DNA from: Sinomonas gamaensis
Lineage (GTDB): Bacteria; Actinomycetota; Actinomycetes; Actinomycetales; Micrococcaceae
DNA: 64,000 bases
NCBI RefSeq assembly: GCF_005876955.1
Contig: NZ_SSCL01000009.1
Coordinates: 62,001 to 126,000, forward strand
Direction of reading: 5' to 3'
Shown here: piece by piece, positions 25,205-32,543 of the stretch
Layout: every line of letters begins with the position of its first letter
Numbering within the stretch: position 1 is the first letter of the stretch
The notes under the pieces: generated by a model
Told to the model about the DNA's origin: nothing
Database searches by the model: none
The model's input: only the letters and a program-made list of their open reading frames with translations
Program-made: the position numbers and the translations under genes

Positions 25205-26581
25205 ATGACCATCACCCATGAGGCGATGAGCGGCGCCGCGCAGACGCGGCGCGCCATCGCCAACACGCTCAAGGGATCAGCAGGCAACCTCATCGAGTGG
25301 TACGACCTCTACGTCTACGCGGCGTTCTCGGCGTACTTCGCGAGCTACTTCTTCAACGCGAAGGATCCAGTCCAGGCCCAGATCGACGCGTATCTGACGT
25401 TCGCGCTCACGTTCCTCATGCGGCCCGTCGGCTCGTGGTTCTTTGGCCGATTCGCGGACCGTCGCGGTCGTCGTGCCGCGCTGACCCTCAGCGTGAGCCT
25501 CATGGGCGTTGGCTCGCTCCTCGTGGCGGTCCTGCCGGGAATGGCGCAGATCGGCGTTTGGTCCACCATTCTCATGTACTTCTCGCGCCTCCTCCAGGGC
25601 TTCTCCGTGGGGGGCGAGTACGGAACGAGCGCAACCTACATGAGTGAGGTGGCGACGGCGAAGCGCCGTGGCTTCTTCTCGAGCTTCCAGTACGTGACCC
25701 TCGTGGGCGGTCAGGTGCTCGCGCTCCTCTCACTCGTCGTGCTCCAGGGCCTTCTGGGCGAAGGGGAGCTCAAGGCGTGGGGTTGGCGGATTCCGTTTGT
25801 GATCGGCGCCATCGCCTCCCTCATCGTCCTGTGGCTGCGCCGCACCATGGACGAGACCATCCCGAACGAACAGGTCAAGGCGGCGCAGGCGCGAGCCGCC
25901 GAAACGCCCAGCAGCACTGAGCCGGGTTCCCTCAAGCTGCTCTTCACCAAGCACTGGAAGGCGTTCCTCGTCGTCGTCTTCCTCACGATGGGCGGAACGT
26001 GCGCGTTCTACCTCTACACCACGTACATCCTGAGCTTCATGAACAGCGTCTCGAAGATCCCGAAGACCCAGACCTCGGTGATCAACTTCTGGGCCCTCTT
26101 CGTCTTCATGCTGCTCCAGCCCGTGTTCGGGCTCCTCTCGGACAAGATCGGCCGCCGGCCCCAGCTCATCGCGTTCGGCGTGCTCGGCGCGATCTTCACC
26201 TGGCCCATCATGTCAACGCTCGCCGGGGTCAAGGACCCTGTGATGGCGTTCCTGCTCATGCTCGCAGGCCTGGTGATCGTGGTGAACTACACCTCAATCA
26301 GCGCCCTCGTGAAGGCCGAGCTGTTTCCCTCCTCGGTGCGCGCGCTCGGCGTCGGGCTGGGCTACGCCGTTGCGAACTCCCTCTTCGGCGGAACGGTGCC
26401 GTTCATCGGCGAGTGGCTCTCGAGCTCAGGCCACAACGAGTGGCTCTTCACGTACGTGACCATCACGATCGTGATCTCACTCGTCGTCTACGTGTTCTTC
26501 TTGGGGAACAAGAAGCAGACTCCGCTCGACGACGAATTCGGCGAAGCCTTCAGCACGCGAGCGACGAGCCGGCTTGATTGA
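25205..26581 (+). CDS. MHS-family MFS transporter (organic acid:H+ symporter)
   Basis: Inner-membrane transporter of 458 residues with twelve predicted segments. The metabolite:H+ symporter subfamily is shown by NLIEWYDLYVYAAFSAYFAS in segment 1, RFADRRGRRAAL in the loop between segments 2 and 3, and LSDKIGRRPQL in the equivalent loop of the second half. Members import citrate, alpha-ketoglutarate, shikimate, proline betaine and similar compounds. A purine-rich AGGGAG lies upstream of the ATG. Being divergent from a TctDE-like system with a carboxylate-type receptor argues for a di- or tricarboxylate substrate. Confidence 0.9.
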   Translation: MTITHEAMSGAAQTRRAIANTLKGSAGNLIEWYDLYVYAAFSAYFASYFFNAKDPVQAQIDAYLTFALTFLMRPVGSWFFGRFADRRGRRAALTLSVSLMGVGSLLVAVLPGMAQIGVWSTILMYFSRLLQGFSVGGEYGTSATYMSEVATAKRRGFFSSFQYVTLVGGQVLALLSLVVLQGLLGEGELKAWGWRIPFVIGAIASLIVLWLRRTMDETIPNEQVKAAQARAAETPSSTEPGSLKLLFTKHWKAFLVVVFLTMGGTCAFYLYTTYILSFMNSVSKIPKTQTSVINFWALFVFMLLQPVFGLLSDKIGRRPQLIAFGVLGAIFTWPIMSTLAGVKDPVMAFLLMLAGLVIVVNYTSISALVKAELFPSSVRALGVGLGYAVANSLFGGTVPFIGEWLSSSGHNEWLFTYVTITIVISLVVYVFFLGNKKQTPLDDEFGEAFSTRATSRLD

Positions 26582-26637
26582 ACGGCGTTCTTCTGGGAAA
26601 CCAACGGCGGCAGGAGCGCGTCCGAAGGGAGCATGCG

Positions 26638-27279
26638 ATGAAGGACGATCAGAACATGGAGCCGTTGTCCGACGAGGAGCTCGCGGCAGAGGGCATCACC
26701 CCCCTGCCGGACAAGGAGGTGGCCTCGATCCTTGACCTCAACGCAGACCTGAATCTCGGGATCGAGGCTGCGGCGCCGATCGATTTGGGGGTCGCCGCCA
26801 ATGCGAATGTGGCGGCGCCCATCGATGCCTCGGCCTCAGCCAATGTCCTCTCGGTGGGGTCCACCTCTGCGGGGATTGCCGATCAGGGCACCTTGATCGA
26901 TCAGGGCATCAACGCCGACGCGACGGCCAACTCCGTCCAGGACAGCAACATCGATCAAGGAACAGCTCCGGTGCCGGCTCCGACCAGCGATCCGACCTCC
27001 ACCACCACGACCACCACCGACCCGACCGCTGTTGCCGACGGCAGCCTCCTGAACGTCGACGTGAACCTCGACGCGAATGCCGGTATCGCTGCTCCGATCA
27101 ACGGTGCAGTGGCAGCGAATGCCAATGTGGCCGCTCCGATCAATGCCGGGGTCGCAGCGAACATCGGTACCGTCGACAGCACTGCCGTCGCCGATGCCCA
27201 GCAGCAGGCGATCATCACCCAACACATCGACGGAGCTGCTACGGCGACGTCTGAGCAGCATTCGGATCTTCAGCAGTAG
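26638..27279 (+). CDS. Ala/Asn-rich duplicated repeat protein, candidate substrate of the adjacent peptidase
   Basis: Protein of 213 residues, unusual in composition: no Cys, Trp, Phe or Tyr, and Lys only at residues 2 and 26. An acidic leader-like start (LSDEELAAEGITPLPDKEV, about residues 10-28) is followed by two copies of a roughly 75-residue unit (about 34-107 and 138-213), each with AAPI(D/N)..VAANANVAAPI(D/N), separated by a Pro/Thr linker with six consecutive Thr. ATG at 26638 follows AAGGGA; an upstream ATG (26578) overlaps the transporter stop and adds unrelated residues. The M50 peptidase gene begins six bases after the stop. No signal peptide is seen. Function unknown; a secreted or processed peptide is plausible. 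Confidence 0.7.
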   Translation: MKDDQNMEPLSDEELAAEGITPLPDKEVASILDLNADLNLGIEAAAPIDLGVAANANVAAPIDASASANVLSVGSTSAGIADQGTLIDQGINADATANSVQDSNIDQGTAPVPAPTSDPTSTTTTTTDPTAVADGSLLNVDVNLDANAGIAAPINGAVAANANVAAPINAGVAANIGTVDSTAVADAQQQAIITQHIDGAATATSEQHSDLQQ

Positions 27280-27285
27280 GCCGGC

Positions 27286-29610
27286 ATGGCGGTCGTCCAA
27301 GAGCATGTGCCGGCTCGTGCCGACGGCCTCGAACTGATCGGCGAGCTGAAGGGCTCTGGCTACCGGACCGCTCCCGCGCTCGTGCGGCGCGGGGATGGCC
27401 AGACCCTTCAGCTGACGCCGCTGCTTTACTCCGTCCTGTCCGCCGTGGACGGCAACAGCAGCATCACCGAGCTAGCGGACCGAGTGAGCCACGAGCTCGG
27501 CCGCCGCGTGACGGCGGAGAACATCCAGACGCTCATCGATTCACGGCTGCGCCCGCTGGGGCTGCTGACGCTGGCGGACGGGTCGCAGCCGAAGGTGCAA
27601 CGGTCGAATCCGCTGCTCAGCCTGCGCTTCCGGTACACGGTGACCGATGAAGCGAAGACGCGTCGACTGACGGCACCCTTTGCGCCTCTGTTCCAGCCAC
27701 TCGTTGTGGCCCCTGTAGTGGCGGTCTTCCTGTTCGTCTGCTGGTGGCTATTGGCCGAGAAGGGCCTGGCCTCGGCGACCTATCAGGCTTTCGAGAACCC
27801 CGGCTTTCTGCTGCTCGTCGTCGCCGTCACCATTCTCTCCGCCGGATTCCACGAGTTTGGGCATGCCGCTGCCGCACATTACGGCGGGGCCACGCCGGGG
27901 GCCATGGGCGCAGGCCTCTACCTCTTCTGGCCCGCCTTCTACACCGATGTGACGGACTCCTACCGTTTGGGGCGCGGCGGCCGCATCCGCACCGACCTCG
28001 GCGGCCTCTACTTCAACGCCATTGTCACGGTCCTGATCGGCGGCGTCTGGTGGGTGACCCGCTACGACGCGCTGCTCCTCGTCATCCTCACCCAGATCCT
28101 GCAGATGCTCCGCCAGCTCACGCCGCTGGTCCGTTTCGACGGGTACCACGTGCTCGCGGACGTCACCGGAGTCCCCGATCTCTTCCACCGCATCCGGCCG
28201 ACTCTGCTCGGCCTGCTGCCGTGGCGTTGGAGCCACCCCGAGACAAAGGTTCTCAAGCCATGGGCCCGGGCCATCGTCACCCTCTGGGTTCTGGTCGTAG
28301 TCCCCGTCCTGCTGGGGAGCGTTGTGCTCATGGCCATCACGCTCCCGCGAGTGTTGGCCACCGCTTGGGCGAGCGTTGCGCACCGGGGTGCAGCCCTGAC
28401 TGCGGCTTCGAGCCGTGGCGACCTGATGGAGGCCGGGGCGCAACTTGTCATGATCCTCGCCGCGGCCCTCCCCGTCCTCGGAATGGGGCTCATCTTCCTT
28501 CGGATGGCCAGCCAAGGTGTCCAAAGGACATGGCGGAAGACTCGGGGGCACCCGGTTCAGCGCACGCTCTCAGCCGTCGCGGGGGTCACGGTCCTTGCAG
28601 TGCTCGCTGCCGTCTGGTGGCCGACGGGATCAACTTATCGGCCGATCCAGCCCTACGAGCGCGGCGCTGTCACCGATGCCTTCAGCGTCGCCCCTCCGAG
28701 GACCGACCGGCTCGTGCAGGGACAAAAGGGCCGCCTCGCCGCCGTCTGGCCCGAGGGAGTTGCCAGGCCGACGGCGGACAAGCCGCGGTTGGCCATGGTG
28801 CTCGTCCCTCGGCCAAGCCAGACGACCACCACGAAAACCGGTCCCGCTCACGCCCCGGCCTGGGTCTTTCCCTTCAGCAAGCCGCTGCCGCCCCAGAGCG
28901 GCGGGAACCAGGCCTTGGCAGTGAACACCCAGGACGGATCGGTGGTCTACGACGTCGCGTTCGCAATGGTGTGGGTCGAGGACGGGGTGGCGCTCAATAC
29001 CAACGAGGCGTACGCCTTTGCCAGCTGTCGGGACTGCGCCGCGGTCGCCGTCGCGTTCCAGGTGGTGCTGATCGTGGGGCAGGTCAACGCCGTGGTCCCC
29101 GAGAACTTGGCCGTGGCCGCCAATTACAACTGCGCCCAGTGCCTCGCCGTCGCCCTCGCAAATCAGCTCGTCCTGACTCTGGATGGACCCCTCAGCCCTG
29201 CCGGAATGGAAGAACTGGCGAAGGTGTGGGACGAGATCGGCAGGTTCGAGGCCTCCATCCAGACCGTTCCGCTCTCGCAGCTACAGGATCAGCTGAACCA
29301 GTACATTTCCCGGATTCGGCAGATTGTCGAGCAGGACCCGTCGGCGACTCATCAGACTTCGGCTAGCCCTACGCCGAGCCCGACGCCGACGGTGACGGCA
29401 GCGACCGGCACGTCGGCGAGCGGCGGTTCCAGTGCCTCACCGGCTGCGCCGGGCACGGCCACCGCGCCAACGACGCCAGAGCCTCAACTTCCGATTGCAC
29501 CCGGCATCGATGCTTCTTCCGGGACGGTGGCCCCTGCACCCACCGCGGCACCGCAATCTCCGGCTCCCGCCGAGACTCCCGTCCCTGTGGCAACCGCCTC
29601 TCCGAGCTGA
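27286..29610 (+). CDS. Membrane M50 metallopeptidase with PqqD/RRE-like N-terminus
   Basis: Protein of 774 residues. Residues about 12-100 look like a PqqD/RRE winged helix (LQLTPLLYSVLSAVDGNSSI, then TELADRVSHELGRR), the domain that grips leader peptides. A membrane domain of about seven segments carries the zinc site: H189-E-F-G-H193 in GFHEFGHAAAAH and FDGYH (about 284-288) supplying the third ligand, as in YydH/SpoIVFB relatives. The outer part (about 460-690) has two CxxC pairs (SCRDC, NCAQC) around helices ending QVVLI and QLVL, then a Pro/Ser/Thr tail. It shares an AVAAN motif with the upstream repeat protein. Co-transcription is near certain; the reaction is inferred. Confidence 0.8.
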   Translation: MAVVQEHVPARADGLELIGELKGSGYRTAPALVRRGDGQTLQLTPLLYSVLSAVDGNSSITELADRVSHELGRRVTAENIQTLIDSRLRPLGLLTLADGSQPKVQRSNPLLSLRFRYTVTDEAKTRRLTAPFAPLFQPLVVAPVVAVFLFVCWWLLAEKGLASATYQAFENPGFLLLVVAVTILSAGFHEFGHAAAAHYGGATPGAMGAGLYLFWPAFYTDVTDSYRLGRGGRIRTDLGGLYFNAIVTVLIGGVWWVTRYDALLLVILTQILQMLRQLTPLVRFDGYHVLADVTGVPDLFHRIRPTLLGLLPWRWSHPETKVLKPWARAIVTLWVLVVVPVLLGSVVLMAITLPRVLATAWASVAHRGAALTAASSRGDLMEAGAQLVMILAAALPVLGMGLIFLRMASQGVQRTWRKTRGHPVQRTLSAVAGVTVLAVLAAVWWPTGSTYRPIQPYERGAVTDAFSVAPPRTDRLVQGQKGRLAAVWPEGVARPTADKPRLAMVLVPRPSQTTTTKTGPAHAPAWVFPFSKPLPPQSGGNQALAVNTQDGSVVYDVAFAMVWVEDGVALNTNEAYAFASCRDCAAVAVAFQVVLIVGQVNAVVPENLAVAANYNCAQCLAVALANQLVLTLDGPLSPAGMEELAKVWDEIGRFEASIQTVPLSQLQDQLNQYISRIRQIVEQDPSATHQTSASPTPSPTPTVTAATGTSASGGSSASPAAPGTATAPTTPEPQLPIAPGIDASSGTVAPAPTAAPQSPAPAETPVPVATASPS

Positions 29611-29622
29611 CTCCAGGATCCC

Positions 29623-31113
29623 TCAGGTGCCCGAGTGGGCCTCGAGGAAGGAGTAGACCTCGGTCTCATCGACACCGGGGAAGGCGCCCGGCGGCATGGC
29701 TGCGAGCAGGTGGGAATGAGCCCGCGCAGAGGGCCAGGCGCTTCCGGCCCAGTGGTCGCTCAGCTCGGCGGGAGGGCGCCGGCAGCACGAGGGGTCGGGA
29801 CAGCGTGAGGTGGCGCGCGCCGTCGTCTCTCGCCCCCTGAACCACTTGACGTGCTGGTAGGGGACACCCACGCTCAGGGAGAACTCGCCTGTTGAGCTCC
29901 GCTCGGTGCGGGCCGTGCACCAGAACGTTCCGTTGACCGTGTCGGTGTACTGGCTGTACGAGCTGAATTTGTCCGGGACGTCGAAGACCGCGCGGCTCGT
30001 CCAGGCCTTGCACGCCGGCTGGCCCTCAATGGCCCCGGTGTGGTCCATGGGGAAATTGACACCGTCGTTCTCGTAGGCCTTGTAGATGATGCCGCTCTGA
30101 TGGGTCTTCTGGAAGTGCGTCGTGATACCGAGGTGCTGCGTCGCGAGATTGGTGAACCGATGTGCTGCGGTCTCGTAGCTGACAGCGAAGGCGTCGCGGA
30201 GGTCCTCGACCGAGATCTCCTTGCGGGCCTTTGCCTGTTGGAGGAACTCAACCGTCGTGTGCTCGGGCAGCAGGAGCGCGGCGGCGAAGTAGTTCGTAGC
30301 GACGCGCTGGGCCAAGAAGTCCCCATAGCTCTGCGGCGTCTCATGGCCCAGGACGTAGTGGCCGAGCGCCTGAAGGAGGACCGAGCGGGGGTCGTGCTCC
30401 GAGCGCTGATTGTGCGTGAGATAAATCCTGCGATTCTTCAAATCAGTCACGGAACGCGTGGAATGCGGAAGATCGCCCACATGGTGAAGGGTGAAGCCGA
30501 GGTGGCTCGCGACGTCCGAAATGAGATGCTGGCTCAGAGGGCCCCCCGCATAGCCGACCGCCTTCAGGACCTTCTGCGCCTGGGCCTCGTACTCAGGAAA
30601 GTAATTCCCCCGCTCGCGCATCATGCGGCGCAACTCGCCGTTCGCACGCCGGGCTTCCTCCGGCGTCGCGATCTGTTCGTTGAGCTTGCGCTCGAGCTCC
30701 TTGAGCAGGCCGAGCTGGGACTCGAGAACGTCCAACGGCGTCCTCGAGCCAATACGGATTTTCGGCAGATTGAGCGATTCGTACAGCGGGCTGCGCTGGT
30801 AGCGCTCAAGCTCGATCTCCAACGCCGCCCGCCGGTTGGGCGGCTCCGCGCCGAGCAGCTGGTCAACGCCCACGCCGAGAGCGCCCGCTAGCTGCTGCAG
30901 CAGCCCGAGTTTCGGCTCCCGCTTGCCGTTCTCGATGAGACTCAGTTGGCTCGCCGCCGCGCCCACGGCGGTGCCGAGCTCTTCGAGCGTCAGGCCGGCG
31001 GCCTTGCGGAGGTGACGGACTCGGCGGCCGAGGCTGATCACGTCGACGTCTCCGCCCTTCCGGGCGGCGGCGGACAGTTCGGCAGGGCGAGTCCACGAGG
31101 CTGCAGGCAACAT
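29623..31113 (-). CDS. ramB: RamB-like regulator (XRE HTH, ImmA/IrrE-like, ScfR C-terminal domains)
   Basis: Regulator of acetate metabolism. An N-terminal Cro/CI-type HTH (LGRRVRHLRKAAGLTLEELG, then LSLIENGKREPKLGLLQQLA) is followed by a linker, an ImmA/IrrE-like domain around residues 200-320, and a C-terminal domain with paired cysteines (SRCPDPSCCR). The peptidase motif HExxH is not intact: the matching segment reads QALGHYVLGHE, so proteolysis is unlikely. It is divergent from aceA, which RamB homologues repress in Corynebacterium and mycobacteria. The ATG at 31113 adds about 25 residues before the HTH; a GTG just before ISLGRR is the other option. Confidence 0.85.
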   Translation of the reverse strand: MLPAASWTRPAELSAAARKGGDVDVISLGRRVRHLRKAAGLTLEELGTAVGAAASQLSLIENGKREPKLGLLQQLAGALGVGVDQLLGAEPPNRRAALEIELERYQRSPLYESLNLPKIRIGSRTPLDVLESQLGLLKELERKLNEQIATPEEARRANGELRRMMRERGNYFPEYEAQAQKVLKAVGYAGGPLSQHLISDVASHLGFTLHHVGDLPHSTRSVTDLKNRRIYLTHNQRSEHDPRSVLLQALGHYVLGHETPQSYGDFLAQRVATNYFAAALLLPEHTTVEFLQQAKARKEISVEDLRDAFAVSYETAAHRFTNLATQHLGITTHFQKTHQSGIIYKAYENDGVNFPMDHTGAIEGQPACKAWTSRAVFDVPDKFSSYSQYTDTVNGTFWCTARTERSSTGEFSLSVGVPYQHVKWFRGRETTARATSRCPDPSCCRRPPAELSDHWAGSAWPSARAHSHLLAAMPPGAFPGVDETEVYSFLEAHSGT

Positions 31114-31190: not shown

Positions 31191-31241
31191 GATGTCACGA
31201 AGAAGTTCCCGTTCATGAGGTTCAGGTCGAAGGAGACAACG

Positions 31242-32543
31242 ATGAACGCAGCAGCTGAAGCCCTCAAGCTCGAGTGGTCCGCCGATCCCCGCTGGGATGG
31301 AATCCAGCGTGACTACACGGCGGAGGACGTCGTGAAGCTGCGCGGGCGGGTTGTCGAGGAGCACACACTGGCCCGCCGAGGCGCGGAGAAGCTGTGGAAG
31401 GCCGTGACCGAGGGCCGCGAGAACGGCACCGGCTACATCAACGCCCTCGGCGCCCTGACCGGCAACCAGGCGGTGCAGCAGGTCAAGGCCGGACTGAAGG
31501 CCATCTACCTCTCGGGCTGGCAGGTCGCCGCGGACGCGAACCTCTCGGGCCACACCTACCCGGACCAGTCGCTGTACCCCGCCAACTCCGTGCCCGCCGT
31601 CGTGCGCCGGATCAACAACGCGCTCCTTAGGGCTGACCAGATCGAGTTCTCCGAGGGGAAGGCCTCAGTCGAGGGCTGGCTGGTACCGATCGTCGCGGAC
31701 GCGGAGGCCGGCTTCGGCGGGCCGCTGAACGCGTACGAGCTCATGAAGTCGATGATCCAGGCCGGCGCCGCCGGGGTGCACTGGGAGGACCAGCTGGCCT
31801 CGGAGAAGAAGTGCGGCCACCTCGGCGGCAAGGTGCTCATCCCGACCCAGCAGCACATCCGCACCCTCAATGCTGCTCGGCTCGCCGCCGACGTCGCCGG
31901 CGTGCCGAGCGTCATCATCGCCCGCACCGACGCCGAGGCCGCGACCCTCATCACCTCGGACGTGGACGAGCGGGACCAGGAATTCATCCTCCGCGAAGGG
32001 GGACAGCCGGTGCGCACGCCGGAGGGCTTCTACAAGGTGCGCAACGGCGTCGAGCCCTGCATTGCCCGCGCCAAGGCCTACGCCCCGTACTCGGACCTGA
32101 TCTGGATGGAGACCGGCACCCCGGACCTGGCCCTGGCGCGGAAGTTCGCCGAGGCGGTCAAGGCCGAGTTCCCGGACCAGATGCTGGCCTACAACTGCTC
32201 GCCCTCGTTCAACTGGAAGAAGCACCTCGACGACACCACGATCGCGAAGTTCCAGCGCGAGCTGGGCGCGATGGGCTTCAAGTTCCAGTTCATCACCCTT
32301 GCGGGCTTCCATGCCCTGAACTACTCGATGTTCGACCTCGCCCACGGCTACGCCCGCAACGGGATGAGCGCGTACGTCGAGCTCCAGGAGCGCGAATTCG
32401 CCTCCGAGGACCGCGGCTACACCGCGACCAAGCACCAGCGCGAAGTGGGCACCGGCTACTTCGACCTGGTCTCCACGGCGCTGAACCCGAACGCCAGCAC
32501 CCTTGCCCTGGTGGGATCCACCGAAGAGGGCCAATTCCACTGA
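31242..32543 (+). CDS. aceA: Isocitrate lyase
   Basis: Cleaves isocitrate to glyoxylate and succinate, the first glyoxylate-shunt step needed for growth on acetate or fatty acids. The 433 residues match the short bacterial form. The catalytic loop [10 protein letters not shown] is intact, with magnesium-binding [10 protein letters not shown] and [12 protein letters not shown] in place. ATG at 31242 follows GAAGGAG; an upstream in-frame ATG at 31215 adds nine residues. aceB follows 44 bases later. Confidence 0.97.

Follow-up and report, generated by a model that had tools for sequence, protein, structure and literature searches.

A doubled-core repeat protein beside an RRE-M50 membrane peptidase that carries a related repeat: a candidate processing and assembly pathway in Sinomonas gamaensis

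What is a membrane peptidase of a leader-binding kind doing next to a repeat protein when no modification enzyme accompanies them? This question is raised by a locus in a 64,000-nucleotide stretch of the Sinomonas gamaensis genome (contig NZ_SSCL01000009.1, positions 62,001 to 126,000; hereafter the window, to which coordinates refer unless a locus is named). Two genes lie there on the same strand, separated by six bases (27280-27285):

26638-27279, + strand: gene A, 213 codons plus stop, a leader and two-core repeat protein and the putative substrate.
27286-29610, + strand: gene B, 774 codons plus stop, an RRE, M50 membrane peptidase and outer domain.

An earlier reading of the letters alone (the sequence-only reading) had described this layout, gap included, which is confirmed. 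It had also stated that the pair adjoins neither a modification enzyme nor an ABC transporter nor an immunity gene; indeed, reading the window translations by eye, we recognised no peptide-modifying, ABC transporter or other exporting, or immunity gene beside it. Its proposal of a two-gene processing and export system is supported by co-occurrence of the genes and by an RRE profile comparison, while we still infer the substrate relation. That A is processed by B is very probable. The whole reading, in which RRE-guided cleavage and release are followed by polymer assembly of an unmodified, beta-forming protein on a homologous outer domain, is given a probability of about 0.5 on the comparisons below.

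The A-B pair is a real unit. The survey comprised 95 loci, namely that of the window, a Mycobacterium locus (L002), the Streptomyces plasmid loci L004 and L005 and 91 other genome stretches. Of these, 93 belong to the family and the remaining two (L121, L122) are distant; eight further matches (G206, G217 twice, G228:C449, G349, G602:C23, G719 and G641:C6) and the distant G397, G063 and G022 are excluded. Around each locus 6 kb was examined, although some contigs end inside that range. A fused B, i.e., one with the outer domain, occurs at 30 of the 93 loci, and each has A directly upstream (30/30), so that the pairing proposed from the window holds across genomes. The A-B distance is small (-3 to 44) in 26 of the 30. 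At L026, L072, L074 and L158 the longest B reading frame overlaps A; L026 has a proper start 8 bases after A. In a quick tree of the 93 peptidases, which carries long-branch warnings elsewhere, the 30 fused B form one side of one branch (Shimodaira-Hasegawa-like approximate likelihood ratio test, SH-aLRT, 100), and the window B has L022 as its nearest relative. A sister architecture has the outer domain as a separate partner protein, encoded at 25 of the 63 non-fused loci. There, A gives way to small precursors whose leader has the same LPx[K/R] motif, which are found at 24 of the 25; the exception is L085, where the contig ends 70 bases upstream of B. The genome under study has a second cluster of this separate type (L027, 7731-10906 on G000:C31), with a CxxC partner, three precursors and a 451-residue RRE-M50 B that lacks the outer domain.

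The observation that carries the assembly part of the reading is a repeat common to the substrate and the peptidase. On the peptidase side it is located as follows:

28906-29181, + strand: outer domain of B with three repeats (residues 541-632), from an alignment of 56 outer domains and partners and from homology to precursor cores.
29026-29037 and 29131-29142, + strand: the CxxC pairs (residues 581-584 and 616-619).

The two CxxC pairs and the AVAAN motif, noticed earlier in this domain, are indeed there. Compared profile to profile, 68 precursor cores and the 56 outer domains and partners score 26.4 (expectation value, E, 5.4e-5; probability 66.5%), while the best of 200 column-permuted profiles scored 15.3. 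Judged from these profiles, the substrate repeat and the outer domain are homologous. The precursor consensus and the third partner repeat have a common spacing of N, N+6, T/S/C+9, S/C+12, A+18 and Q+20. It is kept by D63, N69, S72, S75, A81 and Q83 in the first unit of A, by N169, N175, T178, S181, A187 and Q189 in the second, and by N607, N613, C616, C619, A625 and Q627 in the outer domain of B. The repeat cysteines are thus found in the outer domain of B only, none being present in the putative substrate. One repeat of L028 has lost both its cysteines together, which suits a pair within one repeat better than a four-cysteine site. A zinc ribbon was considered for the outer domain and rejected, the matches remaining below cut-off (DUF6276, 16.5 of 27 bits; Zn_ribbon_3CxxC, 18.3 of 23). 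Separate partner proteins have a hydrophobic N-terminal stretch in the four of four tested.

The putative substrate is divided as follows:

26638-26739, + strand: leader region of A, with LPDKE at 26704-26718 (residues 23-27); LPxK also occurs in small precursors.
26800-26907, + strand: first full core unit (residues 55-90), matched by the profile of single-unit precursors with E 2e-9.
26959-27039, + strand: Thr/Pro-rich variable linker between the units, from the alignment of A proteins.
27118-27225, + strand: second full core unit (residues 161-196), matched by the same profile with E 1e-12.

The LPxK leader motif is found in 30/30 A proteins, and each of the 30 also has two full core units (match to a profile of 33 single-unit precursors), so that A seems to consist of a leader and two core peptides with a variable linker between them. 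Among 600 shuffled A sequences a single match fell below 0.01 (0.0097). The test is only partly independent: profiles of A and of the first precursors had served to collect the 68 small precursors, from which a sequence pattern then selected the 33 single-unit cores. The first independent link is the match of the A profile to single-unit precursors, with E of about 1e-6 to 1e-7. The sequence-only reading had seen two tandem units of about 75 residues: two units are indeed recovered by the profile, but "tandem" is loose, as the Thr/Pro-rich linker intervenes. It had also remarked on the lack of Cys, Trp, Phe and Tyr in A, which is borne out; Arg is absent as well. No A protein contains Cys (0/30) and none ends in Thr (0/30, against 12/68 small precursors), so that Cys-thioether and terminal-Thr daptide chemistry are excluded for these A. 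Across eight pairs of loci, with synonymous sites near saturation in some, the ratio of nonsynonymous to synonymous substitution rates (dN/dS) is 0.07-0.40 for A and 0.18-0.39 for B, A being the lower in 5/8. This purifying selection indicates that A is a real gene, conserved and not diversifying.

The peptidase itself is of a recognisable kind:

27313-27576, + strand: RRE/PqqD-like domain (about residues 10-97), from hhalign comparison with PqqD members and a strand-strand-strand-helix-helix-helix order in the model.
27688-28635, + strand: M50 membrane region (about residues 135-450), from NCBIfam matches, hydrophobic segments and motifs.
27850-27864, + strand: HEFGH (residues 189-193).
28135-28149, + strand: FDGYH (residues 284-288).
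29338-29607, + strand: Pro/Ser/Thr/Ala-rich C-terminal tail (residues 685-774), from the sequence.

The membrane metallopeptidase recognised from the HEFGH and FDGYH motifs holds up, since HExGH and DGY are intact in 93/93 family members; membrane-type hydrophobic segments are found in the 8/8 B tested on a simple scale. The best NCBIfam match of B is the daptide_HExxH intramembrane metalloprotease (residues 29-299, E 1.8e-31, 109.6 bits with a cut-off of 300), followed by YydH/LiaK (E 1.1e-9, 38 of 225 bits, below cut-off). The daptide peptidase model likewise scores the paralogue at L027 below its cut-off of 300 (93.6 bits). Pfam PF02163 matches weakly, in 8/15 members with a best E of 0.01, and neither A nor B has a Pfam match over cut-off. 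For the N-terminus, hhalign of 82 B proteins against 29 PqqD members gives E 4.1e-5 and a probability of 69.9% over 63 columns; it scores 28.1, whereas no column-permuted control scored above 17.3 (0/200 as good). The comparison supports the PqqD/RRE-like domain that had been proposed for B. Neither Pfam nor NCBIfam gives an RRE match over cut-off in B, and the Pfam PqqD model has no match in the window at E 0.001; residues 39-94 match the RRE-type model ApyI below cut-off (E 0.011). An AlphaFold model from a two-row alignment places three strands and then three helices at residues 16-88, the part of the chain with the best confidence (predicted local distance difference test, pLDDT, about 55-78). 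The models of B and A built in this way are mostly of low confidence, and Foldseek with the whole low-confidence B model listed no meaningful match among the best 50 of 87.

Put together, these elements suggest the following course. The N-terminal RRE of B would grip the LPDKE leader of A, as the shared leader motif implies, and the M50 site in the membrane would remove the leader and release the repeat part; both steps follow precedent in these families (daptide paper PMC10036551 and EpeP review PMC10885120). The released repeats may then stack outside on the outer domain of B, where the same repeat is presumably stapled by its CxxC pairs, so that B would be protease, exit and nucleation or anchor point at once. 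This assembly step is proposed because the repeat is shared and because the protease carries the partner only in the doubled-core clade (30/30 vs 0/63). An outer domain homologous to the repeat, its occurrence as a separate protein elsewhere and conservation of a beta-strand kind together point to assembly outside the cell beyond processing alone. More tentatively, and with the odds somewhat against it, the machinery of leader, RRE and M50 peptidase from peptide natural products may have been turned into a secretion and nucleation pathway for a surface beta-polymer, with a Cys-stapled copy of the repeat, part of the protease or of its partner, as template and by a route unlike known surface amyloid pathways.

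The beta-type character is read from conservation. In the cores it alternates with a period of 2.0, which 0/2000 permutations equalled in each of three subfamilies (n = 21, 13 and 34), and shows no period of 3.6 (p = 0.44-0.97 by subfamily, 0.99 for all 68). The period of 2 is weaker in the A units (p = 0.009 and 0.0045) and absent from the two leader sets (p = 0.58); in the partners p is 0.0135 at 2.0 and 0.001 at 2.1. Such conservation is expected of a strand that keeps one face (Asn, Ser, Ala, Gln) invariant but not of an amphipathic helix, and is suggestive of a repeat of beta-strand type rather than a helix.

Several observations weigh against export and assembly as proposed. No hydrophobic segment fit for a signal or membrane helix is found in A on a simple hydropathy scale. 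Residues 586-604 of B, within the outer domain, score as a membrane segment on such a scale, so that an outside placement of this domain is only presumed. The profile probabilities for the RRE and the shared repeat (66-70%) are moderate. Hydropathy does not alternate in the cores at a period of 2.0 (p = 0.19-0.91); at 2.1, p is 0.004 in one subfamily and 0.04 overall. The two-row AlphaFold model of A is helical (pLDDT 40). A Pfam search of eight proteins at E up to 10, where HMMER filters discard most matches above 0.1, returned no fibre-type family, curlin repeat included. Finally, no partner was seen at 38/93 B loci, several of them at contig ends and 18 in family f25, so that the partner is not required by every member.

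Four other explanations were weighed against stacking on the outer domain. Firstly, the outer domain or partner may be an escort, receptor or holdase that binds released repeats like-to-like, the product being soluble or wall-bound and forming no polymer. The same homology and architecture data fit this, and the unrelated TMcin pathway includes an escort protein according to a preprint (PMC13252029). Conservation with a period of 2 over about 40 residues and two cores in 30/30 A suit stacking better, and we consider the escort explanation unlikely.

Secondly, B may mature antimicrobial peptides or proteins, the repeat-copying outer domain or partner serving as immunity protein or decoy. RRE-M50 peptidases are known from peptide natural products, and the sister architecture has several small precursors per cluster. 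Still, an antimicrobial role seems decidedly doubtful given the purifying selection on A, with dN/dS below that of B in 5/8 pairs, the lack of a helical pattern in the cores and the absence of a recurring transporter or immunity family at the 30 fused loci. Neighbour families were taken from crude gene calls within 6 kb and named by eye; at these 30 loci no family but A and B is widespread, and those that come next are found in 6 (kinase-like) and 4 loci.

Thirdly, the pair may serve signalling or sensing, B cutting A or freeing its own outer domain on cue, with the products as signals. Regulated proteolysis is the best-known role of M50 site-2 proteases, and SARP-like regulators lie near 7/63 non-fused loci. 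Nonetheless, the most frequent other family at the fused loci, the kinase-like one, occurs in only 6 of them, and A has neither a membrane segment nor a known domain; a signalling role is quite improbable. Finally, the best family match of B (daptide_HExxH, 110 bits) speaks for a daptide-type modified peptide with modifying enzymes elsewhere in the genome. Such a peptide is nevertheless very improbable, since the match is below its cut-off of 300, no A ends in Thr, no such enzyme family was recognised among recurring neighbours and daptides are described as alpha-helical (PMC10036551).

The peptidase family is not confined to the window. At the limits set, the B alignment matched 12/100 genomes of the family, 60/394 of the class and 26/396 of the phylum; in 2, 2 and 1 of these the matches are weak and distant, leaving 10, 58 and 25 strong ones in samples that overlap. 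In the class, roughly one sampled genome in seven (58/394) thus carries it. Among plasmids, B had matches in two Streptomyces records and a weak, partial one in Muribaculaceae. The complete cluster of the separate type at L004 (7265-10480) is carried by a linear Streptomyces plasmid that was typed as mobilizable; the system may therefore travel. Viral contigs held no relative of B, phage records queried with the outer domain only gave no match, and neither PDB sequence relatives (as far as searched) nor PADLOC matches were found. A candidate from Gemmatimonadales (L003) was dropped as a chance match over a short helical piece. At L086, L091, L093, L097 and L101, the cluster in each case encodes three different precursor paralogues of one unit each, which may hint that three kinds of subunit are required together. 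The 18 loci of f25 (L103-L120) have precursors that match in the leader part only, with other cores and no partner.

Around the 63 non-fused loci, beyond B, partner and precursors, the recurring families are ABC-type (11 loci), LuxR-like (8) and SARP-like (7); no modification enzyme was recognised by eye among the families in four or more of these loci, several of these families being unnamed. The SARP-like regulator lies near the separate-type clusters L028, L030, L031, L082, L084, L087 and L165, and at L030 and L031 a related acidic protein of about 80 residues stands beside it. A lipoprotein-like family of about 263 residues recurs downstream of the separate-type clusters L085, L093, L152, L153 and L159. 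In the window, the neighbours are presumably a two-component system, an MFS-type transporter, an XRE/RamB-like regulator, aceA and malate synthase, named by eye from translations. As for aceA, the isocitrate lyase gene, its distance from the B start is 2.5-4 kb in the window (31215-32543), at L002 (10924-13224) and at L068 and L070; for the window and these three Mycobacterium-branch loci, synteny plus coincidence is the tentative explanation. Neither promoter-like nor terminator-like patterns were found within 26400-29800.

Surface amyloids (CsgA/CsgB, chaplins, rodlins) include curli-type systems in which repeat subunits are accompanied by a homologous anchored nucleator. The present system resembles these in idea only: it has no Pfam match of that kind and would take a leader, RRE and M50 route. 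Among leader peptidases, the RRE-dependent intramembrane MpaP/DapP removes the daptide leader, as stated in PMC10036551. Alike are the fusion of RRE to M50, a conserved leader motif in the precursors and several precursors per cluster (here in the sister architecture). Unlike the daptide system as described there, no oxidative decarboxylase, aminotransferase or methyltransferase is seen nearby, A never ends in Thr (0/30), the core pattern is of beta type rather than helical and the substrate has a homologue in the outer domain. For EpeP, cleavage and export of a ribosomal peptide are assumed in the review PMC10885120; EpeP/YydH/LiaK is likewise an M50 enzyme, and the NCBIfam LiaK model matches B below cut-off (38 of 225 bits), whereas B has an RRE and an outer domain and no epimerase gene stands beside the window pair. 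In the TMcin pathway, TmcP, a DUF3267 site-2 protease, removes the leader in the membrane with participation of an escort membrane protein (preprint PMC13252029). The site-2 type of protease is common to both, and so may be an escort-like membrane partner; TmcP belongs to another protease family (PF11667), and the TMcin substrate has a membrane helix, which A lacks.

B is an enzyme of a known kind. No Pfam or NCBIfam model reaches its cut-off on the two-unit substrate, on the repeat common to substrate and protease, on the small precursors or on the partner. In the literature covered, with subscription journals and most preprints outside it, nothing was recognised on this gene pair, precursor or partner. 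If the proposed reading is true, RRE-M50 machinery would work here without modification chemistry, which would caution genome miners who treat an RRE as the mark of a modified peptide. Actinobacteria would then possess a pathway for export plus assembly that unites protease and template in one molecule.

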